Shown here piece after piece: positions 3,936-60,814 of a stretch of 64,000 bases of DNA. This DNA comes from Lunularia cruciata. Taxonomy: Eukaryota; Streptophyta; Marchantiopsida; Lunulariales; Lunulariaceae. Position numbers and translations under genes: made by a program. Position 1 is the first letter of the stretch. Every line of letters begins with the position of its first letter. The stretch covers positions 80,804,218-80,868,217 of the forward strand of contig OX419755.1 in NCBI GenBank assembly GCA_948567375.1, written 5' to 3'. The notes under the pieces were generated by a model. The model was not told the DNA's origin. It made no database searches and was given only the letters and a program-made list of their open reading frames with translations.

Positions 3936-4193
3936 CTAAGAGGATCTTTATCAACACTATATATTTATCTAATGTAAATATATAAATAATTTATTTTAAG
4001 AAATAAAATAATATGATTATGATATGATTCAATTTATTCAATTTAATCATTTAATTTTTTAATAATAAAATAATAATATAAATTAATTTATTATAATATA
4101 TTCAATGATATAAAATCATATCATGCATAATAAAGATAACCTTAAAAAATTGTAAAATAATAATATAGTCTATTGCTATAGTATCGTTAATTA
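3936..4193. other. AT-rich spacer
   Basis: About 250 bp of mostly A and T (for example ATAAATAATTTATTTTAAG) that ends at the 3' end of element A. The five bases AATTA at 4189-4193 are the likely target-site duplicate of element A, matching AAGTA at 14367 in four of five positions. Confidence 0.55.
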
Positions 4194-4317
4194 AGTTATC
4201 GTGCATATATCCATCCCTACACAACGTACATACTACACAACGTACCTCGCTCTCAACGTCATACACAAAAGAAGCACAACTCACACATAAATCATAAATA
4301 GACTCTAAAGTGCTACA
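4194..4317 (-). repeat. Outer copy of repeat X at the 3' end of element A
   Basis: About 105-124 bp, minus strand, starting TGTAGCACTTTAGAG and running to the element end. It closely matches the inner copy at 4750-4856, so the 3' LTR core is flanked on both sides by X. The 5' LTR core of the same element has no X on either side. Confidence 0.75.
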
Positions 4318-4749
4318 ATAATCATATAGTTTACCACTCGAATCAATCAAACTCAGATCAATACTTGATCTGATATTCAACAACTTGCCATCAACAATGT
4401 ACTGATTACAATAAAGCCACACCCACTCTAGCTAAGAGATTCGAGGTGAGCATCACCTCAAATCTCTTAGCTAGCCAAGAACTCGAAAGCTTATCATCAG
4501 AGAAGTGAGCTCTCTAGAGCTGCACTCCCAGGGTATACCCTTGATTTTGACCTAGGTCTCCTCCCAACGGTCCCGTTGACGGTACACCCGACGGTGGAGA
4601 CGATGGGCCCCGCCATGAAGTCAATACCCTAAACCTAAAATCTGACCGGCGGAAAGTAGTCTATGAATAACTACCAAAATACCTCTAACTACTATCATTG
4701 GAACTCCATTGTCTGAGCATCTAGATGCAACACTACAAATGGCATGACA
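4318..4749 (-). repeat. 3' LTR core of element A
   Basis: Minus strand, starting TGTCATGCCATTTGTAG. It matches the 5' LTR core at 13915-14366 over its length and the B copies at 22791-23245 and 60256-60706. Shared blocks include GTGGGTGTGGCTT and CCTAGGTCAAAATCA on the minus strand. Divergence from its partner includes small indels, so the element is old. Confidence 0.85.
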
Positions 4750-4856
4750 GCTGTCGTGCGTATATACATCGCTACACAACATACATTGCTGTCAACATCA
4801 TACACAATAGAAGCACAAGTCACGCATAAATCATACATAGACTCTAAAGTGCCACA
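4750..4856 (-). repeat. Inner copy of repeat X of element A
   Basis: 107 bp, minus strand, from TGTGGCACTTTAGAG to GCACGACAGC, lying directly between a purine tract (GGGGGG, complement of 4861-4866) and the LTR core. A TG immediately downstream of a purine tract is where a 3' LTR should begin, so X plus core may be the complete LTR. Confidence 0.75.
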
Positions 4857-5024
4857 ATTGCCCCCCTAGCTAGCGGTTAGGTCACTCTAACTCCAGATAG
4901 CCATCTATTCTAAGTATATGGTATACCCTTTGATGGGCAAAGATCAAGAGGTCGGGTGCTATGGAGCCCCATCGTTAGTCGCCTATCTGAATCTATACCA
5001 TATAAAGAATGAACTAGCTATAGG

Positions 5025-5357
5025 TCAAGTACATCTAGAACATAACCACTATACTTGAGGAACCATCGTGAGAAGAGGAGTCATACATGCTATATGCCAT
5101 CCTCTCGAACAACTATCATACACTAACATAATAGCAACTCCACTAGAAGAGTCACATAACATACACCTCAAACCTGCACGTACAAGTGCCAAGCTTGGGT
5201 CCATAGTACCATCAATCTTTGGGAGGTGGCATGGTGCACAATTGCACACATGATCCTTCCAAATAACACCATCACGTCCTTCCAACAAAAGGACTCCAGA
5301 TGGAAAAACCTCACACACTCTCAAGATAGTGCGGCATGTAGAAACATCAAGTGTCAT
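5025..5357 (-). pseudogene. Element A Pol C-terminus with PHD-type zinc finger
   Basis: This is the last part of the A polyprotein, with stop at 5025-5027. After an integrase-tail-like stretch (ILRV, then VIWKDH), the translation from 5357 shows Cys65 and Cys68 (RCMLC), then Cys83, His88 (RGWH) and Cys91, then a Pro-Leu segment. One in-frame stop is followed by Trp-Leu-Cys-Ser-Arg-Cys-Thr and the terminal stop. Spacing and landmarks fit a C4HC3 PHD finger: RGWH, the Pro-Leu loop, and the final W-x-C-x-x-C. Position 80, the expected third ligand, is Tyr. The B copy still has Cys there but has lost the Cys after His. PHD fingers usually bind histone H3 tails; a targeting role is inference. No chromodomain is seen in this family. 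Confidence 0.82.
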
Positions 5358-6420
5358 CGGTGTTTTCTATTGTAGATATACATAGTCTCATGGATGAAAT
5401 CAACAAATCAAGGGTCTATAACCTCTTCCGCAAATGGTAGCATTGTGTAAAGTATCTCTATGCTGAGCAATCGCCAAGTTCTCAAAGGTCATTGGCATCA
5501 CTCTTTGAAAGATCTCTGCCCGCTGAAAACATGCACTCATCTACACATCTAGGTCATCCAAGTCCAAAACTACACTAGCATCTCGACAAATGGCGGCAGG
5601 TAAATCTGGATCTTGTCCATAGAGTAGGAAGTAAGGAGAGAAGGATGCTAAGGAGGCTTCCCGGCTGAACCGATAGCCCATGGCCAACCAAGGTAACTAA
5701 AGATCCCAATCTCCCAAGTAGCCTCTCTGCAAACCATACTTTTGCTATCCTCTTCACCGTCTGAACCACTCTCTCTGCTAAGCCATCTGCCTTAAGGTGA
5801 TCTCGGGAGGTAGTACGATGATCAATCAAAGCCTTGTCACACAAGACCTAAAACTCCCCCAAGAACTTTGTACCTTGATTAGTCAAAACCTTAGCATGTG
5901 CACCAAAATGACTAAGAACTCGATCCAGGAATGAGTAAGTTGTCCCTTCACTAGACTTGTCAAGAAGTGCCACTAATTCAATCCACTTTGAGAAGTGCTC
6001 TACCATCACCAAAACATATTGATGATGCCTCACAATCAGCGGTAAAGGTCTAGTGAAGTCCAAACTCCAATGATAACCCAATCCCATGATAGGTAATGGA
6101 TGTAACTGTGGCGTAGGAGCATTGAATGATGCTCTAACTCAGTCACAAACCACACATATGGCAACAAACTACTGTACCTCGGTCTGCATACCGCACCACC
6201 AATAATGACTCTAGAGTAAGCTATATGTACGCTTGACTCCAAAATGTCCTAGCTCCTCATGAGCATGACAAACTAACTGTGGTCTCTGAGATGGAAGTGG
6301 TACTACTTGTACTCTACCATCCTCCCATACACGCAAAAGGTGTCTACCCTCCAATCTAAACTGTCTGGCTTGCTAAAGGACACAATCTCTCTCCTTGGCC
6401 CCAATTGTGCCACCCACAAC
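5358..6420 (-). pseudogene. Element A integrase region, decayed
   Basis: Minus-strand frames show the zinc-binding and catalytic domains of a retroviral-type integrase. The region around 6150-6250 matches the HHCC part seen better in B. 5848-6087 carries the start of the core with HWSLDFTRPLPL (first Asp) and VEHFSKWIE. 5575-5844 carries a region ending the core (DGLAERVVQTVKR, catalytic Glu) followed by LFLLYGQ-like joining sequence. Integrase cuts and joins the element cDNA into chromosomal DNA. Several stops and frameshifts make it non-functional. It leads straight into the PHD segment. Confidence 0.8.
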
Positions 6421-7130
6421 ACCAGTGTGAAGATAGTCCATCACTAAGACATCATCATGAATGTCTCGCTGAACTGTACCAATATCTTCACTCTTTGGAT
6501 CTGTGACCTCAATAACTCCTCTTGTATGCGCTAAGAGATACCACCAAAGCCTCAGAAAATATACACAAAAGGCAGATACATGCCAACCCGGCACCATCTC
6601 TTCATCTATCTCACCATGCCAACGTACTCTGGTCTGATCCTGTTGGCTGGGACATGGGTTTATACTCAACCCATCCGCATCACGGTTCACCACTCCAGGT
6701 CTATAAAAAACCGTGAAATCATACTCCTATAAAATCAGAGCACATCGTGCAAGCTTCCCTGAAAGCTTGTCGGACTCTATCAATCACTTCAGCGGCAGAT
6801 GATCAATGATGAGAGTGAAGGGGTTACCAGATAGGTAACATCGGATATGTGCTATTGCCCAAACTGCTACCAAGCACTCTCCCTCATATGAACTATACTT
6901 TGCTTCCATTGAATTGATGGAGCGACCAGCATAAGCCACCACGAACTCCTTCCCCTCATCATCATGCTAGGTGAGCACCACTCCAAGCCCCAACATACTC
7001 CAATCAGTATGAACCTAAAATGGTCGTCCTCTGATCAGTCTCCTCAAAATAGGAGCAAATGTCAACCTCTCCTTGAGCTCTACAAAAGCTCTCTCTTGCT
7101 CATCTCCCCAACACCACTCGTGTAAGCTTG
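6421..7130 (-). pseudogene. Element A RNase H and connection region
   Basis: Minus strand between RT and integrase. The reading matches the RNase H part of B (57250-57600): a stretch with HTDWSMLGLG, then YSSYEGECLVAVWAV, then LITDHLPLK-like sequence. RNase H removes the RNA strand during cDNA synthesis. A frame at 6373-6693 covers the link to integrase, including MVNRDADGLS. Stops interrupt the frame. Confidence 0.7.
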
Positions 7131-8140
7131 GTTAGCTTTGTCAAGGCCTTGGCAATGGCACTAAATCCTCTAACATAGCGGTAATAGAAGTTCGCCAACC
7201 CAAGGAATGCTCGCACTCTACTCACATCCATAGGCCGAGGAATACGTGCAATAGCCTCCACCTTGGTTTGCTGAACACCAAGTCCTCTAGGGTAGATAGT
7301 GTGACCCAAATACTCAACCTGCTTGTGGAAGAACCTACACTTCCCAAGATGTAATTTGAGTCCATGAGATCTCAACCTCTCAAACACCTCCAACAACTGT
7401 CTCTCATGCTCCTCCACAGTAGTGCTATAGACCAAAATGTCATCAATATAGCATTGAGAAAAATCCAATCCAGCTAGGATCCTATCCATGACCCTCTGGA
7501 ACTCAGCAAGAGCGTTCTTTAACCCAAATGGTAAGAACCTCTACTGATATAACACATCCTTTCCGTGAGGATCAATAGCCCAAATGTTGTCTTGGACTTA
7601 TCCTCCTCCCTAATTGGCAAATGATGATATCCCACTCGAAGATCCAAAGTATTGAAGACCTTTGCATGCCCAATCGTATCAAAAATCTCCTCCGATGTAG
7701 GCATGGCATACCGATCAACCCTGGTTTGTTGGTTGATAGGACGGTAATCTCCACACATCCGCCTATCTATGTAGTTGCTATGCATATTCTTTTGGTTGGC
7801 ATCACTGTTGCTGATGCATACTCTCCATGTGAAATCTCTACCAAACCAACCTCAAAAAGGTCACTACTCCGGCTCTGAATCAATGTCCTTTTCATCTCAC
7901 TATACTGATAAGGACGTCAAAAAACTGGTGTATTGCTAGTTAGCACAATCCATATACCATGTCCTTTACAGAGCACCCAAATCCTTCATACTGAAGGCAA
8001 AACAACTCGTGTGGCTCCTCAAGAACCTCCAAACCCTCCGTCTTTCCTCTCCAGTAAGCTTGGGTCCAAGATCTGGCTCCCAAGTATCCTCTATAACTAT
8101 AGTCGGAGTGGAAGATGTATTGATTGGCTGCTACACTAGG
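7100..8140 (-). pseudogene. Element A reverse transcriptase
   Basis: The minus-strand RT finger-palm is clear. 7519-7785 reads MCGDYRPINQQT and then VFNTLDLRVGYHHLPI. 7100-7489 begins at the catalytic box CYIDDILVYS (YIDD at 7439-7450) and continues with GKCRFF, LGHTIYPRGL and VRAFLGLANFYYRYVRGF, which are standard Ty3/gypsy RT motifs. RT copies the element RNA to DNA. The N-terminal end matches the B frame 56155-56520. A few stops and one frame change separate the pieces, so it is dead as it stands. Confidence 0.88.
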
Positions 8141-8653
8141 CCCTTGGGAGCAATAGTGTCATGCTCCCGCCCACTACACGTCCCAACCTCTATGTGAAAA
8201 ACTCCCTCCACTATAGGTGCAAGCTCCACACGTCCTCTAGCTGCATCCATAGGGGACCAAGAGTGTAATCCAAGTAGCCCATGCTCACCTGGATAGACTC
8301 CAAGTAGACCACTCTCCCTAGTAGCTATTGGATGTGTCCCAAGAAAACCATGTCCACTTGGTCCATTGCTCCCTGTATGTGCCTGAATCGTCTCGATAGG
8401 CACAAGGTTCACAAGTGTCCAAGTGGTGATGCCTATCAAGCGCATCCTACGCTGCTCTGCCAAGCCAAGGCTCACAATCTAAGTCAAATAGTTCAGGTCC
8501 ATAGCCTGACCTAACACCTGATGCTTGGATGCCTCTGACATTGCTAGAACAGCGGTAACACCGGTGAGAAAACCCATCACCTGCTTTCTCATCAGCATTG
8601 GGCTCCACCAACTATTGTAATTGTGAGTCCCAAACAAGTCCAAGTCCTACCTC
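8131..8653 (-). pseudogene. Element A linker between methyltransferase and RT
   Basis: The 114-codon frame 8131-8475 (MSLGLAEQRRMRLIGITT at its start, Gly- and His-rich middle with GLLGVYPGEHGLLGLH) matches 55816-56142 of element B. No known domain is recognised. It lies between the methyltransferase motifs and RT, so it is a spacer or an extra domain of the polyprotein. Confidence 0.55.
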
Positions 8654-9532
8654 TCAAAAAGCATGAGAGCTTGGGAAACTCATGAGTGTGGGAAATGCAG
8701 CTCTAGGCTGCCCCACTAGGTTCACCATTGCTATAGGTGACCTATCAGCCAGTACCACTATCTGAGACTGACGCCCAACATCCAAGATGTCATCAACAAG
8801 GATGTGGTCAAGTCGTTGAATCCCATCATAAGCACGTTGTAAAACCTCTCTGGGTAAGAGGTTCATCTACCAAAGACAAAAATGATGATGATGAGCCCGT
8901 GATCCCACTTTGGCTGCATCTAAAAATACAGCAGGTCCCATCCAAGAATGGATCTAATGTGTACTCGCCACCACTCTGGTGCAAGAATCACCCATCAAAG
9001 GCACATTTTCCAAAAGGTAAGCGAGAGAAACAGACTGATTAAACTAGAGATGTCATAGTATCCGTAACATCTACCAAAACACACCAGAACAAGGATCTTG
9101 AAGACCCAAACCGCGGCCCACACGTGTATGTCCTTGACATGGCCATCCAAAAATCACCAAGTGAATAGGCCCATGTCTCTCTAGGTCATGCGCCCCCAGT
9201 AAGGAAATGTCTGCTGGTAGGACCTTCTGGTAACCTCTAACTGCTGACATCAATAATAACTCCGGATACCGATAGGCCAAGTGTGCCTCATGATGTAGAG
9301 AGACTTGCCTAGCAGTCTCATCTCTCTCTACATACAAGTACCTCTATACTTGTATACCTGCCTGTAACACCGTAGCTAGTCCAGTGCTAATCCCACCGAA
9401 CAACTCTAATAGACATATCCCCTCTATTGGATACTGCCAAGCAATGAGTGTGGTATCCAGAGGTGTCAAAGCGATTGCCTCTAGAGGCTCATCCTCACAC
9501 TCATCTCCTGATGGTACGAAGGCTCCACTCAA
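8654..9532 (-). pseudogene. Element A C5 cytosine DNA methyltransferase domain
   Basis: A single minus-strand frame of about 290 codons, broken by about six stop codons but no frameshift, carries the ordered motifs of a DNA (cytosine-5) methyltransferase. Motif I is LELFGGISTG (9380-9409, AdoMet binding). The acidic motif II is VERDE. DISLL follows as motif III. Motif IV is GWPCQGH, with the catalytic Cys codon at 9137-9139. Motif VI is YLLENVP (ENVP at 8999-9010, glutamate that protonates cytosine). A motif VIII-like GSRAHxxxx...W stretch follows, then MNLLPREVL. The S-x-AH-R...WWTN pattern, clearer in B, recalls the DNMT3/DRM class more than DNMT1. It sits between protease and RT in the polyprotein. 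At least one stop is CAG-to-TAG, since B retains CAG at the place of 9344-9346. Confidence 0.87.
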
Positions 9533-9730
9533 AGCTTATTGCACCAATTGATTTGCATGCTGTTGTAACCCCTCCTCTAAACTCCACAAAGGAACATCCA
9601 AGGTGGATGGAACAATCCCACTCGTACTCCAAATCTGAGTGATCTCCTCTAGTACTGGAGTATCTTTTGCATGGGCGTTCCCCTCCAACAAATCACCAAG
9701 CCAAGTAACTGCACCACTAAAAGCTAAAAC

Positions 9731-10329
9731 TTATGCTGCCATGGTCCCGAACTGTAACGAGCCAAGACTGCCACTACTGAAGCGTATTGGTAGGTGACAT
9801 ACCCGTCCCTCACTAGACTTCCAAGCAGGTCTATAGGAGGCTATCTCCTCACAATAGTCAATATTGAAACCCATGGTGTACAACATTGCTCCCCCAACTA
9901 GCACATTATATGACTTAGATATTGTCGCAATAGCCTGAGCTCTCACCACCAAGCTATCAATCGGATGACCAGGCTGAACTTGGACCACAAGCTCCCCACG
10001 ATGTACTATGTCAAACTACCACCTAGAGATGTCTAGATCTGAAATAGACACCTCTCCACATTGGTCTTTCGTAACTCCAGACCAACCATTGTTGCCTTCC
10101 CCAACATAAGGGGCTGTGCACCAGAGTCTAACAAGATTGTCTGTGGTGTATAGACCTTCCTTGAAGGTCCCACCAAGCGGAAAACCCCCCTCTGGTTATC
10201 CAATAGGACAACACCAGGTGTGAACCGCGCTCTCTCAAAGGCCGGTCTAGCTGGCAACTCCTCCAATCTAGCCGCTGTTGCCTGCCATAAACCACTGGTC
10301 GCTGAACAAATCCCATGCTCCTCAACCAA
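9731..10329 (-). pseudogene. Element A protease region
   Basis: The 10033-10329 frame contains the retropepsin signature ILLDSGAQPLML (catalytic Asp in D-S-G), preceded by GVVLLDNQRGVFRLVG and followed by a beta-rich stretch. The following frame 9731-9988 continues with YNVLVGGAMLY and MGFNIDYCEE, a conserved tail shared with B. The protease would cut the Gag-Pol precursor. It is split from upstream gag by the F solo LTR and separated from the methyltransferase by about 200 bp. Confidence 0.8.
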
Positions 10330-10337
10330 GTCAGCTC

Positions 10338-11028
10338 TGTAACACCCATTTGTGCATGTGTGTGGTATTGTGATATTTAGCTTGGTATTACAAGTACTTA
10401 AGAGATATTATTTATATAGAGATAAAGGATGGTTCTACATTAGTCATGGTTAGCTAAAGTTAGTCATAGCTAAGGTAGAGGGGACCTTACTTTAGAGGAA
10501 GTAGAAAAGATGAGCACCACTATTTTGGATTTTAGTGTGTTGACTTGGTATTATTCCTAGGTGTTTGGCTTTGAGGAAAGAGTTGAGAACTCTTGGGCCC
10601 GCAAGCCTTTTTGTTTTGGATTCTTCTTTAGTCCAAGGATAGCCCATGTGAAGGAATCCTTGACTTAGTGGTTGGGTCAAGATAAGACCACATGCTTAGG
10701 GGAATATGCCCATGTGAATGGATATTCCTTTCTACTTTTTGACTTTACTTGATTTTTAGTCTAATAACTTGAGTTACTATGGTAATTAGTAACTTTGGTA
10801 CGTAACTATTTCACAAGTATATAAACAAGGGGTGAGGAGGTACTCATCATCCTTTCATTTGCAACTATCTCTCTCTCATTGAGTTCTCTAGTGAGCAATG
10901 TCTTGAGTCTTGGAGTGTTAGCCTTGGAGGAGTATGATGGAGTTGGGGTTCCTTGCCTTCTTAGTCCATGGTGTGCTACCATAATAGCCATCAGAGGTTC
11001 ATCTTGAGTGAGAGACAGGCCGGCTCAC
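10338..11028 (+). mobile_element. Solo LTR of family F inserted in element A
   Basis: TGTAACACCCATTTGTGC to GGCCGGCTCAC, nearly identical to the LTRs of full element F (38456-44404). It is flanked by AGCTC at 10333-10337 and 11029-11033, a perfect 5-bp duplication. The corresponding place in B (near 49540) is an empty site where the frame runs through. Internal DNA has been lost by LTR-LTR recombination. A TATA box TATATAAAC lies at 10818-10826. Confidence 0.92.
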
Positions 11029-11033
11029 AGCTC

Positions 11034-13101
11034 CACTATCAACCACCTCTACCCTAGTAGTAGGAACCACATCATCCCTACTCTCACAAAGTGTGGCAGC
11101 CAACCAGAACATTGGGGCTAGGTCAACTCCCAATGTCAACATGTCACTAGCCAAAAAAGGACACCGCATAATCAGCTGAGCCGCCCCCAACATTATGCTA
11201 GACTTAGTTTGTGCAGTAGAAGGGGGCTGACTAGCAGGTAGTCCATCATGCACTCCATCACCACCTACCACACCTACATTAGGACATCTAGGAACCATGG
11301 ATGTCGTCTGCAATGCCTCAAATAGCATGAAAGACTTGAGAAGTCTGACATGTCTCCCAACCTCTCTTCTTTGTGGGTCCAACTCCATTGATGCTCCTCT
11401 AGGCTCTGGAGCACGTATTGCGCTCCTAGTCATTACTGCAAATGCATCCACCTGTGTTGCTCCACACATGAAATCCAAAGCATCTCTGTCACCAATATAT
11501 GAGGTGGAAGCCTCAACACCCAAATCTGATCTCCTCTAATTAATAGCCATACTAGCCAATCTCTACTCCAACTGCTCAATCCAAGTAGCCATAACTGTAT
11601 GAAAAGTAAGGGCAGGTACCGCATCCCTACTAGGTGTAGATCCTCTACCACCACCTCTACCACCTCATCCTCCATGAATTGGAGCTCCTCTACTACTTGC
11701 CATAACAGCCCTACCACTCCGTAACTCAGGGTGTAGGTCAAAACACCGATCACTAGTGTGACCAAATTTGTGGCAATGCTCACACTGCCTTTGTGTTGGT
11801 TGTGAAGCACCAAAGGTATCAGGTTCGCTGCCTTGAGTACACTCTCTCCTATGGTGAGGTCCACCACAAGTCCAACAAGCAACACTACCACTCACTGGCT
11901 ACTGTTGACCCGGAAATGAAGATAAGGATCTAACTATAATTGGCCCTCCACTTGCTCCATAGGATCTGGGCTGTCCACCCTGTCCTTGAAAACCAACTGA
12001 GCGTGGTGCACTCTACTGCACTCTAGAAGAAGTCATAGTTGTGGATGAGGTCTCCCTACCAAATCTAGATGTCACCATCCTCTCCTCCACCATGTTGAGC
12101 TCATTACGCTCAACCAAACCAAAGACCACTGCCAAAGTAGACAAAGTAGCTTGCAACAATGTAGCATCACAAACTCTACGTCGTAACTCCCTATCTAGTA
12201 TCCCATACCAAAATTGGATTGCTTGGGCCTCAGTAACTCCCTGAGTGAAACTGATCAGCCATCTCATGCGAGTGTATGCCTTGCCTAGGCTCTCTCCAGC
12301 CTTCCACTAGAACTCTTGCAAGCTCCTTAGCTTGTTAGTCCGCACTCCTTGGTAGTTCTGCCTCAAACACAGGAAGAACTCCACCATGGGGTTAAACCCC
12401 GGTACCACACCACCTCATGCAGTGGTACCTCTATTCGTGGTAACACTATCTCCAGCTAGTGCACCTCCACTAGCTCCACCAACACTACTCAAGCTAGAAC
12501 TCGTAAGGACAGCCGATCTACTCTTGGCCACCGAGCCTGAAGTGATAGAGATATAGTTTGGAGACCAATACTATCTCCATAACTCAATCTCTTCCAAATG
12601 AGCTCTCCTAAACTCATGATAGTCATCCATTGGCGGACCCTCCAAGTGCTGAAACAACCTCTTCCATGCCATGAAGGGTGTGAACAAAGTCGGGTTTTGC
12701 ATCTGCTGCAGATCACACCAACTATCAAACTCCTAGATGAAGTCATCTAACTCAATGGTACGCACTGTACCAAAGTAACGCCTAGGGCCTTTGGAGGCCC
12801 CATAAAGCTCATCCATGTCCTACAAAAACGGTGCAGACACACCAAGTGCACTCTCAACTAAATCAACTCTTGTGTCAAACTCCAACTCAAAGTCAATCTC
12901 CTCTCTCATTGGGACCTGAGATACAGGTTGATACCGAGTGCCACTCCGAGTAAACCCACTGTGTATTGTAGGGCTATCTCCTCTGGAATCCCTAAAGAAC
13001 TCCGTCGTGACAAAGTGACCACAGCCGCAACCAAAACCACCAAATGCAACCACAAGTTGCAACCGCAAGTACCCCACCAAGTGCCAATACCAACTAAGCA
13101 C
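11034..13101 (-). pseudogene. Element A Gag and Gag-protease junction
   Basis: Minus-strand frames in order: 12820-13101 (Gag N-terminus ending in VESALGVSAPFL), 12489-12746, 12013-12267 (capsid-like, QFWYGILDRELRRRV), 11665-11895 with two zinc knuckles, and 10999-11523 as the C-terminal part. The knuckles are C7-x2-C10...C19 (CWTCGGPHHRREC) and C38-x2-C41-x4-H46-x4-C51 (CEHCHKFGHTSDRC). These bind element RNA during packaging. The same order is seen in B at 24462-26153 plus 49131 onward. Frames are separated by stops and shifts. Confidence 0.8.
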
Positions 13102-13914
13102 CTCCCATTAATGTAACTTTAACCAAGACAACTACACTAGGAGAAAGGGCAACTTGTAACCTGCCATCACAACACACATTCTCACGGTCTGTAGGTCATC
13201 ACTTCCTACCTCACCGGAGAGAAACAAAGATAGTCTGACTAGTCATCACTCCAACCTCACTATCGAGAGCACACCAGAGCACCAATGCTCAAAATTCAGG
13301 GCACCTCACACAAACATGGTGCACAAACAAGAAGCAAAGAATGGAGGGGGTCCAATCACAAGAATGCTAAACAACAACCTTCCATCTCATAAATCAACAC
13401 AAGACTGACTCTGCCACCATTTGGCATTTGACATAATTGGAGTACCTATCTACTTCCTGAGCTACGAGGATCGGTTTCAAGTTCTTTTTGCCAAAATCTA
13501 ACGTAACTCCTTTGCAAAATATGATGTAAAATCTGATGTAAATCTGACATAAATCTGATGTAAATCCCTAAAAATGGTTGACTACTAAATCCTCAACTAA
13601 CTCTTCACTCGAGCCAAATTGGAAAAATTAGTTTTGTCCAATTTTCAATTCGTGAGAATCTGCTCCCAACTCCATCTTCAATTTCAGTTTCTGAGCTCAA
13701 CTCGGAACAAATTGGTCCTGAGCTCAAAATCATAGTTACCGCTTGAATATTGCTTCTTCCTTGGCTCCAAATTTTGCAAGCGCTTCCGCACACACACTCT
13801 CTTAGGGAAATCTCAACTTTGCAATCGAGACACCATGATCCACCAAGCTTGGAGATACCACCAACACTTGTAGTTCGTGCACCCAATTTCCCCCTGACTC
13901 ACTCCTCTGATGTA
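13102..13914 (-). other. Element A 5' untranslated region
   Basis: Between 5' LTR core and Gag. The part 13600-13886 (minus) matches B around 23260-23450 (AATTGGGTGCA, then TTGGTGGTATCTCCAAGCTT). No protein is credible. The primer binding site is not certain. The antisense 93-codon frame here is not conserved in B. Confidence 0.5.
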
Positions 13915-14366
13915 ATTAGATCATTTACCACTCGAATCAATCGAACTTAGATTAATACTTGATTTGATCCTCAACAACTTGCCAACAATAGGGCATTGAT
14001 TACAGTCAAGCCACACCCACTCTAGCTAAGAGACTCCAGGTAACGCTCTCCAAATTTCTGTCCACTCTAGCCAAGAACTCGAAGGCTCAACATTAGAGAA
14101 GTGAGCTCTCTGGAGCTGCACTCCCAGGGTATACCTCTGATTTTGACCTAGGTCTCCTCCCAATGGTCTTGCTGACGGTACACCCAACAGTGTGGACAGT
14201 GTGGACGGTGCAAGTGACGGTGGGCCTTGCCATGAAGTCAGTACCCTAAACCTGAAATCTGACCGTCGGAAAGTAGTCTATGAATAATTACCAAAATGCC
14301 TCTAACTACTATCACTAGAACTCCAGTGTCCGAGCATCTAGATGCGACACTACAAATAGCATGACA
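13915..14366 (-). repeat. 5' LTR core of element A
   Basis: Minus strand, starting at 14366 with TGTCATGCTATTTGTAG. It pairs with 4318-4749. Outside it at 14367-14371 is AAGTA, the likely target duplicate of AATTA at 4189-4193 (four of five). No X repeat is attached to this copy. Confidence 0.82.
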
Positions 14367-17300
14367 AAGTATTGAAATTTAATGATAAGAATGATGAATG
14401 ATAAGAAATAATATAATCTCCTAACACCATACCATCCCTTAAAGTTAATTCAATATTGGAGAGCAATGTAAAACAATGTGAACCTTAAAGTCTTTCCAAA
14501 TGTCATTGAGGAGAAACTCCTCCTTTCAGAATGTAAAATCAGTCACAAGTACCCCTAGAATACACTAGTAAGACGCAAATGGTAAGAATGTTTTCTGAAT
14601 GCATTTTTGGGTTTATTGCCTCGGCTACAAATGCCGAGTACAGTCCACAACCCCACGATAACAATCCTACATCGATCTATGGATCAATTTCAATTCACTT
14701 GCATCCCTTCGTCTATAAATCTATTTATCGATTAATTGCATTATTACAATTGGGTTAGGATAGGCATGCCATCCGCGGTCGCCTTTCACTTGGAGGATAT
14801 AGCTTATGAATACAACCATGAACTAAGAATCGTGAAGTATACTCGTCAATACTATCTCACTCCAATTCCAGTTGGAATAAAGCAATAAGCTACACCCGAG
14901 TATGTCGAGACTTTATATTTGGCTGCGCTGCTACATTTTACCTAGTGAATCTGAAACCAGCGAGAAGATTATTCTTCATATTTCAGATTTATCTTTCACA
15001 CCGACGATATATTTCAAATATGAAAAATTACCTTCTCACTAATCATGATTACACCCAAGAATTCTAATTTTTTTCATGGAATTCATGAATAGAATGACTC
15101 AATTAAAAGGTCTATTTTTTCCATAAAATTATGAAAAGAATGGCCCAATGAACAGTGAAGGGTTCTAGTTTCTCCAATCAAATTTATGGATAGAATGGTA
15201 TATGAGTGTTTGAAATTTTCACTAAAGAGTTTTACTTATCTCTACGTAACTTATGAACAGAATGACATAATGGAAAGTTCTATATTTTTTTTTAAATTTA
15301 TAAAAATAGGGGTATCAAAAGTAGTTCTGAGGAGTCTATGAGATAAATAACAAACTTCATAACTATTTTTAGTGACCTCTATAGTGGGATGAAGTGCTAA
15401 TAGTTGAACCCTCATTAAATGGTGTACGGATATTTGGTGCAAGTTGAATTTTTTTGAAAATCAAGCAAGATGTTATGGATGTTTGGGTGTGCCATATCAA
15501 AATAAGGTCAAAAGAGGTAACGTGGCTTAATGATAAGGTTGCCACATTTTTTTGGAGGGTGATTTGTGAAATTTTTTGCCCCAAAACATGCTGCACTCCC
15601 CGAGTATTCGAACTTGAATTCACCATTGATTGCATCGCAGACTCACAATCAAATTCAAAACCAAGACCTTTAGACTCACATTTGGATTTGCAACCAATAC
15701 AATCATCAGGAAAGTTTGGAGAATTGTTGAGGATGGCATCTTCCATGCTGAGCAAATAAAATTAGGACAAACAGTTCTGCATGATTACATACTATTTTGG
15801 CCAAATTTTGGATTATTGTGAAGAGCACAATCATTTTGCATAAATTCATGGTGGGAACTGAAAAAAGCCCATTTAGAAATCCATTGCTTTTAGTTTCATG
15901 GCCACATTTTTGGTTTGGGAGGGTCAAGGATTTCATACTTCTATGACAAGTGATAGATTGTACAAGAAATAGTTGAGGTATATGAAATCATACAAAGAAG
16001 CTTGGGAGTTGAAAAACAATTCTATTAGAGAAGGACTCACCAAAAAGGCATATGGCAAAGGGTGGAGAACTAAAGATGAAAATTGAATGGAATGTGCACA
16101 CATTTTGCTAGAATGGAAGCCATGTTTGGGAATAAAACCAACATTACACCACCTGCCATGGTAAGTTTGGGAGATTTAAATCCCAATTCATGCAAGGTTA
16201 GTTTGAGGAGTTTCTTGAATGCAAAGAAACCATCTTGACAAGCTCTCAATTCCCATCTCCTCCAGAGGTGGTGCTCCCCAACTTGTGCTCCTAGTTTGTC
16301 CCAAACACCCCATGGGGTGGAAAGTTTACCTAGTGTATACATGGAGAATGGAATCCAAGCTTGTACACCAAAGGAAGCACATTCTATTGCACTAGTCAAG
16401 GACTCACCTTTTGTTAACCACCTCCACTAGCTTCTATAGGAGATAGCTCAAAAAGTGATTTCTTTGACAAAAAAGAAAATTTGATCCAAAGAGGAGAAAA
16501 GGTAGAACATCCACAGATAAGGTATCCAAAATATCACGTAGTATGTCCTTGTCTTAAGATTTAACAAAAATCACCATGTTGAAGGTAGATATTATAGAAC
16601 CTAGAGAGAGGTTATGAGTAGCTGAACTAGACATCACTAACATGAGAAAAGTGGAGAAAAAATTGATGAAAATGGAAGTTGAGCATGTTAGATTAGAGAT
16701 AGAGAAGATGAAAGTCAAGATTGGGAAGACATTTGAGTGCTAATAAAAGGAAAGCTAGGGTAGATAGACACAAATTGAAGAGATGAGTCTAGAATCAAAG
16801 CACACTCATGAAATCAAAATGAGTCTCTTGCAAGGAGGAAAAATCTCTGGAGGAAATAAGTCAATAGTTCAAAGTACTAACTCAAGTTCATCAAGAAATC
16901 AAGCCTTTGACTATGTGTTATAGTCCCAAGCTAAAAAATCTTATTCCAAATTCATTTTCTAATGAAAATGAATATGATACTACCATTGAAGGCACTTCCA
17001 TGTAACTAGAGTACATTTATAATTAAAGATGTTGTTTGACTACTTTGTGATTTAATGTGTAATGATTGCTGATAAGTGTATTATGCTTAAGTATATGAGA
17101 TTTGAGACTTTTTTGTAAGTATTAGAGATTGCTAGAACAAGGACCCCTATCAAAAGTCCAAAGACCCACTTCAGAAAGACTTCTCATGCTCAAAGATAAA
17201 CAAAATAGCCGCCTAGAGATGCCCATTGGAGCCCAAAAGAGCATCATGCTCCCAACCAATCCCTAAAGTGGCAAGCATTGGCACTCATCGGTGCTTGCCG

Positions 17301-22194: not shown

Positions 22195-22790
22195 AATCTG
22201 AGGAGAGCCTCATCAAGCAATGGTTGATCAGATAGTTCAAGAGTTTGTAGACATGTTTCTAGATGATTTGCCAAAGGGATTACCCTCCAATCGTGGTATG
22301 CCCTTCAAGATTGAGTTATTGCTAAGGAGTACTCCAATGAGTAGACCAATCTATCGGCTCTCACCGAAGGAGTTGGAGGAGTTGCAAACAATACTTATGG
22401 AGTTGTTAGAGAAGGACTTCATACAACATAGTACCTCTCCTTAGGGAACACCGGTACTATTTGTTCCAAAGGAGGATGGAGTACTTTGTTTCTGTATTGA
22501 TTACTGTGACTAAGTAAGCAAACAATGAAGAATGCATATCCCTTGCCTCGGATTTATGACTTGCTTGATCAATTGAGTGGAGCACAATACTTTGCCAAGT
22601 TGGATCTTTGTAGTGGCTATTGGTGAAGCCTCATTGATAGGGAGGATGCGCAAAAGATTTCCTTTTGCACAAGGTATGGGCATTTCAAATAGAGAGTTCT
22701 ACCTTTTGGGCTCACTAATGCTACATCAGTCTTCATGGATCAAATGCATTGGGTGTTGGATGGCCTATTGGATTGGTACGTGGTGGTGTT
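22195..22790 (+). pseudogene. Element D1 reverse transcriptase, first part
   Basis: 22220-22444 reads [36 protein letters not shown] and [11 protein letters not shown], the N-terminal RT of chromoviruses. It is followed by broken PVLFVPKEDG and CIDYCD. The frame is cut at 22790 by element B. The target duplicate GTGTT at 22786-22790 pairs with ATGTT at 60810-60814. The catalytic Asp-Asp lies in the far part, at 60815 onward. Confidence 0.85.
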
Positions 22791-23245
22791 TGTCACACCA
22801 TTTGTAATGTCACATCTAGATTGCTTGGACACTAGAGTTGCAATGATAGTAGTTAGAGGTATTTCAGTAGTTTCCCATAGATTACTTTCTGACAGTCAGA
22901 TTTCATGTTTGGGGTACTAACTTCATAGTAGGGCCCATTGTCACTTTGCACCGTTCGCACCATCAAGTGTGCCATCAGCAGGACTATTAGGGTTCTAGAC
23001 CTAGCTCAAGTCCAAGGGTATACTTTCAAAGTGTAGCTCCAAAGAGCTCACTTCTTTGATGTTGAGCCTTCGAGTTCTTGGCTATGGTGGACAGAGGCTT
23101 GCGAGCGTCAGTTGGATTCTCCTAGCTAGAGTGGGTGTGGTTTGACTGTAATCAGTGCCCAGTTGATGGCAGTTTATAGAGTGATAGATCAAGTATTGAT
23201 CTGATTTGAGTTGATTTAAGAGTTGTAAACAATTTGATTACATCA
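22791..23245 (+). repeat. 5' LTR core of element B
   Basis: Begins TGTCACACCATTTGTAATG and ends near TTTGATTA. It aligns along its length with 60256-60706 and with both A cores. No copy of X lies before or after it. Shared landmarks: CTGACAGTCAGATTTCATG and CTAGAGTGGGTGTGG. Confidence 0.85.
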
Positions 23246-24461
23246 AAGAAGTGAAGTTAGGGGGAAATTGGGTGCAAAAATTGTGAGTGTTGGTGGTATC
23301 TCCAAGCTTGGTGGATTGTTGGTAGCTCAATCAAAGTTTAGTTTTTCCTTGGTGTGTAGAAGCTCGTTGTCTGATGCAGATTTGGTAGTAGGGCCAACGG
23401 TGTGTGCAAGCGCTGGCCAATTTTTAAGCAAAGAAGAAGCAAATTTTGAGTAATGGTTGTGATTTTGAGCTCAAAAGGTGAAGATAAGACCAATTTGTTG
23501 CAAGTTGGGCTCAGAAAGTAAAATTGAAGGTGGAGTTGGGAACCTATCCTTGTGAATTTGTGATTTGGAGAAACCCATTTTTCAAATTTGGCTCAAGTGA
23601 AGAGTTAGCGAAAGATTTGGCAATCAGCCAACTTTAGGGTTTATGCCCAATTTTTGCTGGAGTTTATGTCAGATTTTCGCTAGATTTGGAGGAGTTTTGC
23701 TAGTTGGCTAGATTTAGAGGAGTTTTGCAGGTTTGGGGGAGTTTTTCCAAATTTGGAAAGGCCTCATTGGGGCATTTAGAGGCTTTGAGGCATAGGGCTA
23801 TGGGCTATGAGAGGCTACAAAGTCCTAGAAGAGCAAGAAGGGCCAACAAGCCATCTTATTGGCGTGAGGCTAGCTAGTTTAGAGTAAATCTTGGTCATTG
23901 TTTGGCAAAATCTGCCCATCCTACTAGATTGTGTGCAATAGGGTTTGGCCCCTAGATCTCTTATTCTTAGACTTGTGCCCTAGCCAACTGGTCCACCCTT
24001 ACTTGTTGTTCTAATGATTGTGCCATTGTTATCTATACATTTGTAGCTTTGGCTAGGAGAGGCAATTTGATCCCATTCTGGATGATCCCAGTAGCGTAGG
24101 ATGTAATAACAAACTTCTCTTATGTCAAATGCCAAATGGAAGTAGAGTTAGTCTCGTGTTGCTTTATGAGATGGAAGGTTTTTGTTCAGATTTCTTGTGA
24201 TTGGACCTCCTCTATTCTCTGCTTCCGGTTTGTGCACCATGTTTGTGTGAGGTGCTCTAAATCTAGAGCATTGATGCTCTTGTGTGCTCTCAATAGTGAG
24301 GTTAGAGTGATGACTAGTTAGACTACCTTTGTTTCTTTCCGTTGAGGCAGGAAGTGATGACCTATAGATCGTGAGAGTGCGTGTTGTGATGATAGGTTAC
24401 AGGGCACCTTTACTCCTAGTGTAGTTATCTCAATTAGAGTTATATTAGTGGGAGGTGTTCC
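23246..24461 (+). other. Element B 5' untranslated region
   Basis: Matches the A leader at 13102-13914 in its first part (AATTGGGTGCA, GGTGGTATCTCCAAGCTTGG) and again near 24200-24450 (GATGCTCTTGTGTGCTCTC). No supported protein. Frames such as 23268-23453 are not conserved in A. Confidence 0.5.
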
Positions 24462-26153
24462 ATGGGTATTGGCACTTGGTGGTGCTCAATTGGTGTTGGC
24501 ACTTGGTGGAGTACTTTTGGTTGTGGTTTGCAGTTGCATTTGGTGGTTCTAGTTTGCGGTTGCAATTGTGGTTATTTTGTCACAACGGAGTTCTTTGTGG
24601 ATTCTAAGGAAGTTAGCCCTATAGTATGTAATGGGTTTACTTGGAGTGGCGCTAAGTACCAGCCTATATCTCAAGTCTCAGTGAGGGAGGAGATTGACTC
24701 TAAGTTGGAGTTTGATACAAGAGCTGATTCAGTTGAGAGTGCACTTGGCATGTCCGCACCATTATTGTAGAACATAGACGAGATTTATGGGGCCTCCAAA
24801 AGCCCTAGGCGTTACTTTGATAAAGTGCATACTATTGAGTTGGATGACTTCATCTAGGAGTTTGATAGTTGGTGTGATTTGCAGTAGATGCAGAACCCAA
24901 CTTTGTTTACACTCTTCATGGCATGGAAGGGGTTGTTTCAACATTTGGAGGGTCCACCGATGGATGACTACCATGAGTTCAAGAGAGCTCATTTGGAGGA
25001 GATTGAGTTATGGAGATAGTATTGGTCTCCAAACTATATCTCCATTGCTTCTGGCTTGGTTGCCAAGAGTAGATTGGTTGTACCCACAAGTTCTAGCTCT
25101 AGTAGTGTTGGTGGAGCTAGTGGAGGTGCATTAGTTGGAGATAGTGCTACCACGAGTGGAGGTACCGCTACATGAGGTGGTGTGGTATCGGGGTTTAACC
25201 CCATGGTGGAGGTCTTCTAATGTTTGAGGCAGAACTACCAAGGGAGTACGGATTGACAAGCTGAGAAGCTTGAAGGAGTTCCAACGGAAGGCTAAAAAGA
25301 GCCTATGCAAGGCATACACTTGCATGAGGCGGTTGATCAATTTCACTCAGGGAGTTATTGAGGCCCAAGCAGTCCAGTTTTGGTATGGGATACTAGATAT
25401 GGAGTTACAACGTAGAGTTTGTGATGTTATGTTGTTATAGGCTACTTTGCACACTTTGGCAATGGTCTTTAGTTTGGTTGAGCGTATTGAGCTCAACATG
25501 GTGGAGGAGAGGATAATGGCATTTGGATTTGATAGGGAGCCCTCATCCACAATTGTTACTTCTTCTAGAGTACAGAGTGCACCACGCCCAATTGGTTTTT
25601 GAGGACAAGGTGGATAGCCTAGATCCTACGGAGCGAGTGGAGGACCTAGTGGAGCTAGATCCTTACCTTCTTTTTTAGGTCAGCAGTAGCCAGTGAGTGG
25701 TAGTATTGCTTGTTGGACTTGTGGTGGACTTCACCATAGGAGAGAGTGTACTCAAGGCAACGGACTTGATACCTCTGGTGCATTGCAGCCAGTACAAAGG
25801 CAATGTGAGTATTGCCACAGATTTGGTCACACTAGTGATCGATGCTTTGACCTACACCTAGAGTTATGGAGTGGTAGGGTTATTATGGAAAGTAGTAGAG
25901 GAGCTTCAGTTCATGGAGGACAAGGTGGTAGAGGTAGTGGTAGAGGATCTACATCTAGTAGAGGTGCAGTACTTGCCCTTACTTCTGATATAGCTATGGC
26001 TACTTGGATTGAGTAGTTGGAGTAGACATTGGCTAGTATGGCCATTGCTTAGAGGAGATCAGATTTGGGTGTTGAGGCTTCCACCTCATATGCGGGTGAT
26101 AGAGATGCTTTGGACTTCATGTGCAAAGCATCACAAGTGGATGCATTTGCAGC
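24462..26153 (+). pseudogene. Element B Gag, cut by element C
   Basis: 24462-24770 matches the A Gag N-terminus (SVREEIDSKLEFDTRADS, then VESALGMSAP). 24787-25134 and the next frames continue the capsid region. 25693-26016 carries two zinc knuckles, CWTCGGLHHRREC and CEYCHRFGHTSDRC, with all ligands kept, followed by a Gly-Arg-rich tail (GGQGGRGSGRGS-like). The frame stops at 26153 where C is inserted (target GCAGC, with ATAGC after C) and resumes at 49131. Confidence 0.82.
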
Positions 26154-26759
26154 TATGGTACCCACATTTTTTGGTTTTGGATAGTTTCAAGGAAATTAAG
26201 AAGAAGTATGTTAGTAAAGCCTAAGGAGGGCTAATTGGGAAAGAAATAAGAAGAAGCATGTGTTTGGGGCCAAACCCAAAGTTGACCTTGGATCAAGACC
26301 AAAGGACTCAGGATGGACAAAAGAGGAAGACAAAGAAGAGGACTTTGTATCGAGCAAGGTAGTCTAATCCAAAGAACCTATAATAGACTTCTTTGCAATT
26401 GGAAAATCAAGAAAGTACACGGGAAGAAAGTAATGGCCTCAAGATCAAGAAGTTTTTGATAGTGACACAAAACAACCCCACAAAAATCAGTGATTGGAGT
26501 GGAGAAACAATTGAAGAATGACCAATTAGCACAGGACTATGATATCAAGAGTTTTGTGAGGAAGCAACACAATGTCCAGAAGCTACCCTGTCCCTATTCA
26601 GAGTCAACCCAAAGTATTGCAAATTGCAAATCCGCATGAAGACGAGTGGGCTAGGATCTCAAGAACAATCTTCCACAAGAAGAGGGTGAGAAAACACACA
26701 AAGGCCCTAAAAGTGAGTAAGTAGAGTGCAGTGAGGGGACTTACAATCATAGATTAGAA

Positions 26760-38120: not shown

Positions 38121-38455
38121 AAGACAATCTAGGATCTCTTGAAGTTGAAGCAAAGATTGTAAGGTGCATGATCACATCAATACTCATTGATTTGGGTTCC
38201 GGTGTGAATGTCATGACCAAAGATACTGCAAATTGGCTAGGGTATCATACATTTGAGCCAACACCCCAAGTTTTGAAATTTGTAGACCAAACTTGGAGAC
38301 GGCCATTAGGTATGCTATCAAACATTACCACAATCATTGGAGGAGTGCACTTTAAGTTGAATTACATTTTGTTGCAACCAGTGACCAAAATTGGTTACCC
38401 ATTATTGATCATAAGGCCTTGGTTGTACAATGCACAAGTTGTGGTGGATTTGTAC
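38121..38455 (+). pseudogene. Element C protease
   Basis: The frame crossing 38121-38455 reads AKIVRCMITSILIDLGSGVNVM (Asp-Leu-Gly in place of Asp-Ser-Gly), then TPQVLKFVDQTWRRPLG, IIGGVHFKLNYILLQ and PLLIIRPWLYNAQ. This is the retropepsin pattern of Tat/Athila-like elements, with the IGRPWL block altered by one residue. It is enclosed by D2 on the left and F on the right. The upstream part of the 131-codon frame belongs to the D2 LTR. Confidence 0.8.
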
Positions 38456-39145
38456 TATAACACCCATTTGTGCATGTGTGTGGTATTGTGATATTTAGCT
38501 TGGTATTACAAGTACTTAAGAGATATTATTTATAGAGATAAAGGATGGTTCTATATTAGTCATGGTTAGCTAAAGTTAGTCATAGCTAAGATAGAGGGGA
38601 CTTTACTTTAGAGGAAGTAGAAAAGATGAGCACCACTATTTTGGATTTTAGTGTGTTGACTTGGTGTTATTCCTAGGTGTTTGGCTTTGAGGAAAGAGTT
38701 GAGAACTCTTGGGCCCGCAAGCCTTTTTGTTTTGGATTCTTCTTTAGTCCAAGGATAGCCCATGTGAAGGAATCCTTGACTTAGTGGTTGGGTCAAGATA
38801 AGACCACATGCTTAGGGGAATATGCCCATGTGAATGGATATTCCTTTCTACTTTTTGACTTTACTTGACTTTTAGTCTAGTTACTTGAGTTACTATGGTA
38901 ATTAGTAACTTTGGTACGTAACTATTTCACAAGTATATAAACAAGGGGTGAGGAGGTACTCATCATCCTTTCATTTGCAACTATCTCTCTCTCATTGAGT
39001 TCTCTAGTGAGCAATGTCTTGAGTCTTGGAGTGTTAGCCTTGGAGGAGTATGATAGAGTTCGGGTTCCTTGCCTTCTTAGTCCATGGTGCGCTACCATAA
39101 TAGCCATCAGAGGTTCATCCTGAGTGAGAGATAGGCCGGCTCACA
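38456..39145 (+). repeat. 5' LTR of element F
   Basis: TATAACACCCATTTGTGC (first G changed to A) to GGCCGGCTCACA. TATA box TATATAAAC at 38934-38942, which puts the likely RNA start about 510 bp into the LTR. Confidence 0.93.
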
Positions 39146-39170
39146 TTTTTGGTTCCGTCACCGAGACCTC
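39146..39170 (+). other. Primer binding site of element F
   Basis: TTTTTGGTTCCGTCACCGAG follows the LTR directly. It resembles the TGGCGCCGTCGCCGGGG class, with substitutions. The matching tRNA is not certain. Confidence 0.6.
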
Positions 39171-39183
39171 TCTAGAAGGCAAG

Positions 39184-40449: not shown

Positions 40450-40502
40450 CCAGTAGGGGTGATGGATAAAGTGGAGTTTCAGTTAAAAGAGTTCAAAATC
40501 TC

Positions 40503-49125: not shown

Positions 49126-49130
49126 ATAGC

Positions 49131-53209: not shown

Positions 53210-53291
53210 GAAGGCACTTGCTCTCGATGATCTTTGTCATGAAACTTGGAAAACTAACATTCCAGTTCCATGCCAAGAATGTAATCCGAAG

Positions 53292-53522: not shown

Positions 53523-53540
53523 TGCTTCGTCGCAAGCTCA

Positions 53541-53552
53541 ATTTTTATAGAG
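53541..53552 (-). promoter_or_regulatory. TATA box of the solo LTR
   Basis: CTCTATAAAAAT on the minus strand, about 390 bp into the LTR and just ahead of the first ATG of the LTR gene. It suggests that the LTR promoter drives the LTR gene directly. Confidence 0.55.
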
Positions 53553-53942: not shown

Positions 53943-55141
53943 ACATGCAAAAGATACTCCAGTACCAGAGGTAATCACTTGCATTTGGAGTATGAATGGG
54001 ATTGTTCCATCCCCCTTGGATGTTCCATTGTGGAGTTTAAAGGACGCATTACAACAACATGCAGATTGATTGGTGTAGTTGGCTTAGAGTGGAGCCTTTG
54101 TACCACTAGGAGATGAGTGTGAGGATGAGCCTCCGGAGTCAATTACCTTGACAACTTTGGATACCACACTCATTGCTTGGTAGTATCTAATAGAGGGAAT
54201 ATGTCTATTGGAGTTGTTCGATGGGATTAGCACCGGACTAGCTATGATCTTATAGGCGGGTATACAAGTACAGAGGTACTTGTATGTGGAGAGAGATGAG
54301 ATTGCTAGGCAAGTCTCTCTACATCATGTGGCATACTTGGCCTATTGGTATCCAGAGTTATTACCAATGTCAGCAGTCAAGGATTACCGGAAGGCCCTAC
54401 CAACAAACATTTCCTTACTAAAGGCGCATGATCTGAAGTGATATGGGCCTATTCATTTGGTGATTTGGGATGGCCATGTTAGGGACATACACATGTTGGC
54501 TGAGGTTTGGGTCTTCAAGATCCTCATTCTGGTGTGTTTTGGGAGATGTTATGGATACTATGACATCTCCAAGTTCATCAATCTGTTTCTCTAGCTTACC
54601 TTTTGGAGAACCTTCCTTTGATGGGTGATTCTCGCACCAAAGTGGTGGCATCAGGTCCATTCTTGTATGGGACTTGTTGTATTGTTGGATGCAGCCAGAG
54701 TGGGATCATATGCTCATCGTCTTTGTCTTTGGTGGACAAACATCTTACCCAAAGAGGTTTTAAAGCGTGCATATTATAGGATTTAGCGACTAGACGACAT
54801 CCTTGTTGATGACATCTTGGATGTAGGACGTCAGTCTCAGACGGTAGTAGTGGCTGATAGGTCACCTATGGCAATGGTGGACCTAGTTGGACAGCCTAGA
54901 GCTACTTTTCCCACACTTACAAGTTTCCCAAGCTCTCATGCTTTTTGAGAGGGAAGACCTAGACTTGTTTGGGACTCACAGTTATAGCAATTGATGGAAC
55001 CCAATGTTGATGAGAGAGAGTGGGTGATGGGTTTTTGCATTGGTATTACCACTATTCTAGCCATATCAAAGGCATCTAGGCATTAGGTGTTAGGTCAGGC
55101 TATGGACCTTAACTATTTGACCTAGATTGTGAGCCTTGGTT
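53943..55141 (+). pseudogene. Element B C5 cytosine DNA methyltransferase domain
   Basis: Second copy of the methyltransferase. After the solo LTR the reading ITLTTLDTTLIAWXYLIEG leads to motif I LELFDGISTG (54208-54237), YLYVERDEIARQVSLHH (motif II), NISLLKAHD (III), GWPC followed by TAG (54471-54482; A has CAG for Gln), YLLENLP (VI; ENLP at 54606-54617), and motif VIII GSYAHRLCLWWTN (54703-54741), then EVLKRAYY and DDILVDDILDVGRQSQ. Two or more small deletions shift the frame. Motif VIII is clearer than in A and looks like the S-x-x-HR-x-R-[YL]-[FW]-W-x-N pattern of DNMT3/DRM. Position after protease and before RT is the same as in A. Confidence 0.85.
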
Positions 55142-60809: not shown

Positions 60810-60814
60810 ATGTT

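Follow-up and report, generated by a model that had tools for sequence, protein, structure and literature searches.

The 64,000-nucleotide stretch of Lunularia cruciata DNA analysed here (the window; contig OX419755.1, positions 80,804,218 to 80,868,217) contains, inside a Ty3/gypsy element referred to as element A (Table 1), the decayed remains of a DNMT3-like C5 cytosine methyltransferase (MTase). The first-pass annotation had reported the MTase blocks LELFGGISTG, VERDE, PCQG and ENVP and a motif VIII-like block in this segment, and all of them were present at the positions given, in a single minus-strand frame (9589-8600). The limits of the domain had to be redrawn. It starts at approximately 9457 and not at 9532, and the end proposed at 8654 is a mere stop codon, past which the same frame runs on to LVEPNADEK, with a frameshift near 8587. 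Beyond the frameshift, a different frame carries motif IX/X-like sequence (MGFLTGVTAV...QVLGQAMDLNYLT) down to approximately 8430. When aligned to copy L013 of the same family, the window core showed 9 in-frame stops and 8 gapped bases. A significant match to the C5 MTase family had been predicted for this segment; with stops written as X, the window copy reached 17.9 bits against PF00145 (E 0.0023), below the cut-off of 22, and the prediction held for the MTase domain of the open ORF1 of copy L009 (31.2 bits, E 1.9e-7). Because the window copy is decayed, it is insufficient as proof by itself, and it is the open copies of the same genome that settle the identity. The 879-base segment gave no match to phages by blastn.

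Where element A ends in CACGATA, other copies end in CACGACA. The second decayed copy in the window is split by an insertion at 50200-53938, which carries a 409-aa minus-strand ORF (51980-53209). The MTase-bearing family has a third copy in the window (22789-26160, plus strand), but this one is partial, with a terminal repeat and gag only. The window also holds a young MTase-less Ty3/gypsy element at 38455-44404, the 690-bp LTRs of which are 99.3% identical, and each of the two decayed MTase-bearing copies has a solo LTR of this young element's family inserted in it.

Table 1. Features of the MTase-bearing copies in the window, with strand and the basis or details of each call
Feature	Position	Strand	Basis or detail
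Element A, decayed Ty3/gypsy with MTase, layout B-gag-PR-MTase-RT-RH-IN-PHD-A-B-A	4197..14366	-	starts TGTC, ends CACGATA, repeats
4-bp target duplication ACTT, element A	14367-14370 and 4193-4196		flanks of element
5' terminal repeat B, element A	13922..14366	-	blastn 76% to B of L011
gag and zinc-knuckle part of ORF1 (residues 11-695), element A	11029..13089	-	tblastn with L009 ORF1
Solo LTR of MTase-less gypsy family inside element A, duplication GAGC	10338..11029	.	same repeat as 38455-39145, 43715-44404
Protease part of ORF1, element A; LLDSGAQP at ~10134	10000..10335	-	
DNMT3-like C5 MTase, motifs I to X, 9 in-frame stops, frameshift near 8587	8430..9457	-	span from open copies
TAG stop between ORF1 and ORF2, context TAG CAG CCA, element A	8131..8133	-	
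ORF2, element A: RT, RNase H, integrase, C-terminal PHD finger (~5031-5165)	5028..8130	-	tblastn 80-94% to L013 ORF2
Internal repeat A directly after polypurine tract, element A	4750..4857	-	
Internal repeat B, element A; A-B junction GACAGCTGTC	4336..4749	-	
3' terminal repeat A, partly rearranged, element A	4197..4318	-	
Second decayed copy as traced; 5' end not found	~49120-60810		
MTase of second decayed copy, same family	54028..55002	+	tblastn 61%; 11 in-frame stops
Solo LTR of the MTase-less family in second decayed copy	55142-55816		

Anatomy of the family in the Lunularia cruciata genome

The L. cruciata genome (566 Mb, 74 contigs) was searched with PF00145. Of 2,161 candidates 123 were scored, and 123 matches above the cut-off were found among the candidates scored; some were host MTase genes, and many had long open frames of up to 1,428 aa. 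Copies L009 and L013 served as the main references for element anatomy. In L009, ORF1 is a single frame of 1,428 aa that contains gag, zinc knuckles (recognised by eye), a protease with LLDSGAQP at residue 762, and the MTase from residue 989. The gag region remained below the Pfam cut-off (13.8 bits), and the protease was seen as the LLDSGAQP motif with no Pfam match; the relatives P0014 and P0041 have protease domains. ORF2 of L013 (1,037 aa) matched RVT_1, RNase H, Integrase_H2C2, rve and PHD in Pfam. The order is that of Ty3/gypsy elements, gag-PR-RT-RH-IN, with a DDE integrase. ORF2 ends in a PHD finger where a chromovirus has its chromodomain, and no chromodomain occurred in the 11 Pfam rows of L013 ORF2. 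The proposal that the MTase between protease and RT belongs to the gypsy element itself was borne out by L009 and L010, in which gag, protease and MTase share one open frame of 1,428 aa, and by relatives in other species, Klebsormidium included, which carry the MTase in the same place.

ORF1 and ORF2 lie in the same frame and are separated by a single TAG. In L009, ORF2 is open from approximately residue 72 only, and ORF1 of L013 and ORF2 of L010 are each broken by a frame change; since each reference copy has one ORF broken, no single copy is claimed to be fully intact. Recent copies in the same genome keep ORF1 or ORF2 intact, and of the 29 distinct copies, 11 have an MTase core with neither stops nor gaps. 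The TAG followed ORF1 in 28 of the 28 distinct copies covering the site, including both window copies (L036, which equals L010, was left out, and L047 stops short of the site), and its context fitted CARYYA in 25 of the 28. A CARYYA context after a stop codon favours readthrough, as in plant viruses. The MTase was followed by the TAG and ORF2 at a constant distance in 28 of the 29 distinct copies; as all copies were found through their MTase, these counts apply to the MTase-bearing members of the family.

Affinities and probable capture of the methyltransferase

Motifs I, IV (PCQ), VI (ENV), VIII, IX and X of C5 MTases were present in order in L009 and L013, the IX- and X-like blocks being EPNADERERAMGF and QVLGQAMD. 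Among 118 homologue domains, simple patterns detected motif I in 88, IV in 85, VI in 107, VIII in 76, IX in 90 and X in 94; some of the domains missed are decayed or gapped models, and others have variants such as WECQ. A profile built from five homologous MTases matched DNMT3A best among PDB chains (E 2e-23, 86 bits), compared to 43 bits for 4onj (a tobacco DRM), 38.5 for DRM2 and 37.7 for HhaI. A DNMT1/CMT type was rejected, no chain of such a name being found among the 58 PDB sequences matched at E<=1. The structure of homologue P0046 was predicted from 26 sequences (mean pLDDT 86.8), and the best 50 of the 1,254 Foldseek matches to this model were all entries of DNMT3 complexes; within these 50, the TM-score by target length was approximately 0.8 for DNMT3 catalytic-domain chains. 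Identity to DNMT3A in the fold alignment was roughly 22%. Among solved structures, in libraries that hold no phage MTases, the enzyme is nearest to DNMT3 in sequence and in predicted fold. The similarity in sequence to DNMT3 is not exclusive, since phage MTases match L013 at 30-34% identity over approximately half of the domain.

Relatives were found in Marchantia polymorpha (57-71% identity, coverage varying), Sphagnum fallax (47%) and Klebsormidium nitens (KFL_013780020, KFL_009030040), and the best 120 of 421 matches added Calypogeia fissa, Riccia sorocarpa, Marchantia paleacea, Sphagnum troendelagicum, S. tenellum and Closterium. Of the element relatives that bear a name, the nearest were bryophyte ones. 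No seed plant, fern or hornwort name occurred among the matches listed, many rows of which are nameless, and this is no proof of absence. The Sphagnum element MTases (P0018, P0056, P0081) were 47-73% identical to those of L009 and L013, depending on method and coverage. They sit among the liverwort rows with weak support, which could reflect strong constraint or horizontal transfer between bryophytes.

A tree of the MTases, suggested by the first-pass annotation with a different sampling, was built with human DNMT3A, host DNMT3, host DRM, Klebsormidium elements and phage MTases, and the element MTases did group apart. In this tree of 55 rows, a 100/99 branch separated 45 element-type MTases from seven phage MTases, DNMT3A, host DNMT3 and host DRM. 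The element MTases are set apart from cellular DNMT3 by a long branch, in a tree that has only three cellular DNMT3/DRM rows, all partial, and homologues found with element queries. The element group joins MTases of Klebsormidium, Closterium, mosses, liverworts and metagenomes, with K. nitens P0199 and P0206 falling with the window family; several of the metagenome rows are fragments with no RT on the same protein, and P0065 is named as bacterial. In the RT tree (45 rows), the 17 metagenome elements in which the MTase comes after RT formed one group (100/99), and 43 MTase-bearing RTs were split from the two MTase-less window gypsy RTs, the only such controls (100/100). The main groups were the same as in the MTase tree, and their order was unsettled. 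According to Pfam, Klebsormidium P0206 and Closterium P0189 have the MTase ahead of RT; in P0021, P0029 and P0037 it sits between RNase H and integrase. Because its position differs among relatives, a single capture would imply that the MTase has been relocated one or more times in the history of the lineage. After its PHD finger, metagenome P0029 also shows by eye a second methyltransferase-like stretch (VDPWAGTGT ... TSPWF) outside its Pfam matches, perhaps of adenine/N4 type.

The trees suggest that the Klebsormidium case is a branch of an old streptophyte lineage and not an isolated capture. Independent captures of DNMT3-like enzymes by Klebsormidium and bryophyte elements, or a phage-like source in place of a host DNMT3, appear unlikely. 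Non-element MTases are few in the tree, the homologues were fetched with element MTases, and the identity of phage MTases to L013 is no less than that to DNMT3A in the fold alignment. However, 45 of 45 element-type MTases fall beyond the 100/99 branch, the module order is the same in Klebsormidium, and the RT tree returns the same main groups; a phage source in particular is unlikely because the seven phage MTases, from five phages, fall with DNMT3/DRM and outside the element group. A tblastn search of 50,697 phage records gave 447 matches at E<=0.01, with identities below 60% throughout and coverage of the domain short of 80% in every case, and of 43 stretches with a pattern in IMG/VR, one encoded a relative, at 27% identity. 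Although the host genome has DNMT3-like and DRM-like genes, the separate insertion of a host gene into a single element copy, which the first-pass annotation had named as the alternative, is virtually impossible and was rejected, as the position of the MTase is common to elements of other species, Klebsormidium among them, the distance to the TAG and ORF2 is constant (the presence of the MTase being given by selection), ORF1 is a single open frame in L009 and L010, and in all nine copies whose two ends could be read, the target duplications flank the complete element.

Permuted ends and a proposed route of insertion

The elements do not have plain LTRs but a terminal layout of B-coding-A-B-A, with B of approximately 455 bp and A of 106-108 bp. 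Eleven copies were looked at, and the 4-bp target duplications were perfect in all nine in which both ends were readable: CATA (L011), ACTT (L030), AACC (L032), TCTT (L033), TTTA (L034), ACTC (L035), GAGG (L029 with L013), TAGC (L036) and ACTT (element A). The 5' B was not found in L031 or in the second window copy. Divergence between the two B repeats (K2P) was 0.154 in the window copy compared to values of 0.007-0.027 across the seven further copies for which it was determined; the window copy is therefore an old one. The 23-base A-B junction had 533 exact copies genome-wide, and the reversed control had 0. A polypurine tract, AGGGGGGCGA with small variants, immediately preceded the internal A in 11 of 11 copies. 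The sequence GATTA closes B ahead of the leader, and at the 3' boundary of B and A all 11 copies read GATTA-TTGT(G/A)G. Past GATTA, the sequence lacks the TGG of the usual tRNA primer site; the ATCAGAG found there presumably resembles the stretch that pairs with initiator tRNA.

The polypurine tract, the end of B and the palindromic A-B junction fit an LTR of the structure A-GC-B and, we infer, a circular cDNA opened inside the LTR by integrase. Reverse transcription would yield an ordinary LTR cDNA, the ends of which would join blunt into a circle (join GATTA-TTGTGG). The DDE integrase would then cut the palindrome CACGACA-GC-TGTCACG in one LTR, leaving GC out of the inserted ends, and the opened circle would insert as B-coding-A-B-A. 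Such a cut inside one LTR of a two-LTR circle would make every insertion a circular permutation with split repeats. It is a tentative proposal, to which we give somewhat less than even weight, that the two-LTR circle is the regular integration precursor of this lineage and that this circle may be a substrate of the Gag-linked DNMT3-like enzyme. In the permuted ends, nature provides a test case for the use of circular cDNA by a DDE integrase.

A DIRS/PAT-type origin of the split repeats, in which a tyrosine recombinase would act in trans and the integrase would be unused, is highly improbable; to our knowledge, tyrosine recombinases leave no target duplication. The repeat order is the same, and KnitGypsy-Dnmt3 is described as DIRS-like (PMC5890265), but the DDE integrase is open and the 4-bp duplications occur in nine of nine copies. 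No tyrosine recombinase was present among the Pfam matches of L009 ORF1 and L013 ORF2.

At the 3' end of copy L016 (C2:62725501-62735500), the polypurine tract is followed immediately by just one A and then by flanking sequence, which would fit the product of a one-LTR circle. Beyond an inserted MTase-less gypsy element, no 5' part of L016 was found in the stretches examined.

Selection, proposed role and known systems

Private changes in the MTase were neutral-looking, with N/S of 102/52, near the expected 2.0, and changes common to at least three copies were less so, with proportionally fewer replacements at 26/27 (Fisher p 0.033; 26 copies) and two shared stops. Private and shared N/S were 105/44 and 6/11 in gag-PR (p 0.006; 10 copies), 76/39 and 9/17 in RT (p 0.004; 19 copies), and 70/26 and 3/7 in integrase-PHD (p 0.0096; 11 copies), respectively. 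A rough omega from the shared changes was 0.48 for the MTase compared to 0.25 for gag, 0.28 for RT and 0.20 for integrase, on unequal copy numbers (26, 10, 19 and 11). This weaker constraint on the MTase was not reproduced with equal copies (11, or 10 for gag-PR; shared meaning two or more): in the same 11 copies, private and shared N/S were 58/23 and 13/19 for the MTase and 50/27 and 10/11 for RT. Recurrent C-to-T changes can imitate shared ones in these counts; when CG and CHG sites were removed, the MTase gave 15/10 private and 2/10 shared in the same 11 copies.

Across 11 copies (L009-L018 and L022), the transitions counted per site and copy amounted to 0.044 at CG, 0.033 at CHG, 0.0055 at CHH and 0.0025 at A/T. 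These copies have an excess of C-to-T changes at CG and CHG, with little at CHH. To judge by these counts, the CG/CHG decay of inserted copies looks like host methylation. The CpG observed/expected ratio was 0.46-0.51 in four MTase-bearing copies compared to 0.109 in one young MTase-less window element. Depletion of CpG as a mark of lasting self-methylation was not seen in these four copies, and chronic CG self-methylation is unsupported because the lineage has no extra CpG loss.

Plants silence transposons by cytosine methylation, and the charophyte, liverwort and moss elements all carry a DNMT3-like enzyme, the kind that plants use against transposons. The most likely role, which we hold to be evenly balanced between right and wrong, is that the MTase is carried along with Gag and acts by methylating newly made cDNA. 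ORF1 (gag-PR-MTase) would be the main product, to which occasional readthrough of the TAG would add RT-RNase H-integrase-PHD. The MTase would be packed with Gag into the particle in which cDNA forms, and would methylate the new DNA before insertion, while the PHD finger may steer the integrase to certain chromatin. The CpG content lends no backing to this role, since the MTase-bearing copies are not CpG-poor. In yeast, a Klebsormidium relative gave no methylation, in a test that de Mendoza et al. call inconclusive (PMC5890265).

It is doubtful that the MTase and the PHD finger would instead work at the insertion site, silencing the new copy and limiting damage to the host. The PHD finger does lie on the integrase side and inserted copies show CG/CHG decay, but the MTase and the PHD finger are on different ORFs, linked only through possible readthrough, and the decay fits host enzymes. 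An action on RNA, either element RNA or primer tRNA, would be compatible with the sequence and was raised by de Mendoza et al. for LINE elements (PMC5890265); it is quite improbable for an enzyme nearest to DNMT3A/3B in sequence and fold, with 86 bits, when the RNA enzyme DNMT2 reaches 24. As a joint explanation, a decayed Ty3/gypsy copy whose Gag-side MTase acted on new cDNA, with a circle opened inside the LTR, commands about as much belief as doubt from us. The Marchantia relatives make the role of a retroelement DNMT testable in a model plant.

The kind of element is already known. As stated in the first-pass annotation, MTases captured by retrotransposons had been reported in algae: KnitGypsy-Dnmt3 of Klebsormidium nitens was described by de Mendoza et al. 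in 2018 with gypsy domains, DIRS-like repeats, conserved catalytic residues and purifying selection (PMC5890265). The main text of that paper contains neither 'Marchantia' nor 'moss', and PMC12344493 cites the 2018 cases. A 2019 paper gave transposon-encoded DNA methylases as absent from land plants, a statement at odds with the relatives in Marchantia and Sphagnum. The published L. cruciata assembly, of 580 Mb, was enlarged through Ty3/gypsy bursts, and 'methyltransferase' occurs 0 times in the main text of its description (PMC9985172). No report of MTase-bearing elements in land plants was recognised in the open-licence literature searched.

SymbioDIRS-Dnmt3 and SymbioLINE-Dnmt of Symbiodinium are also retroelements with a C5 MTase; they are DIRS and LINE elements, with a tyrosine recombinase or an endonuclease where the present family has a DDE integrase (PMC5890265). 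A Ty3/gypsy element of orchids likewise combines a land-plant gypsy with a nucleic-acid-modifying domain, but its m6A demethylase is of the 2-ODD type, in an additional ORF, and has an RNA target (PMC9289625). DIRS/PAT elements have the repeat order A-coding-B-A-B, the same as here with the letters swapped, and differ from the L. cruciata family in that the latter has a DDE integrase (rve), a PHD finger and target duplications. KnitGypsy-Dnmt3 shares with the present family a DNMT3-like MTase in a Ty3/gypsy polyprotein before RT (P0206) and, as compared by description from the legend of Fig. 4c, a DIRS-like repeat order (PMC5890265). The L. cruciata family differs in that it belongs to a land plant, is present with 533 exact junction copies, carries the MTase in the Gag-side ORF before the TAG, and ends ORF2 with a PHD finger, which is absent from the partial model of P0206; moreover, its 4-bp duplications were read here and an explanation of its ends is offered.
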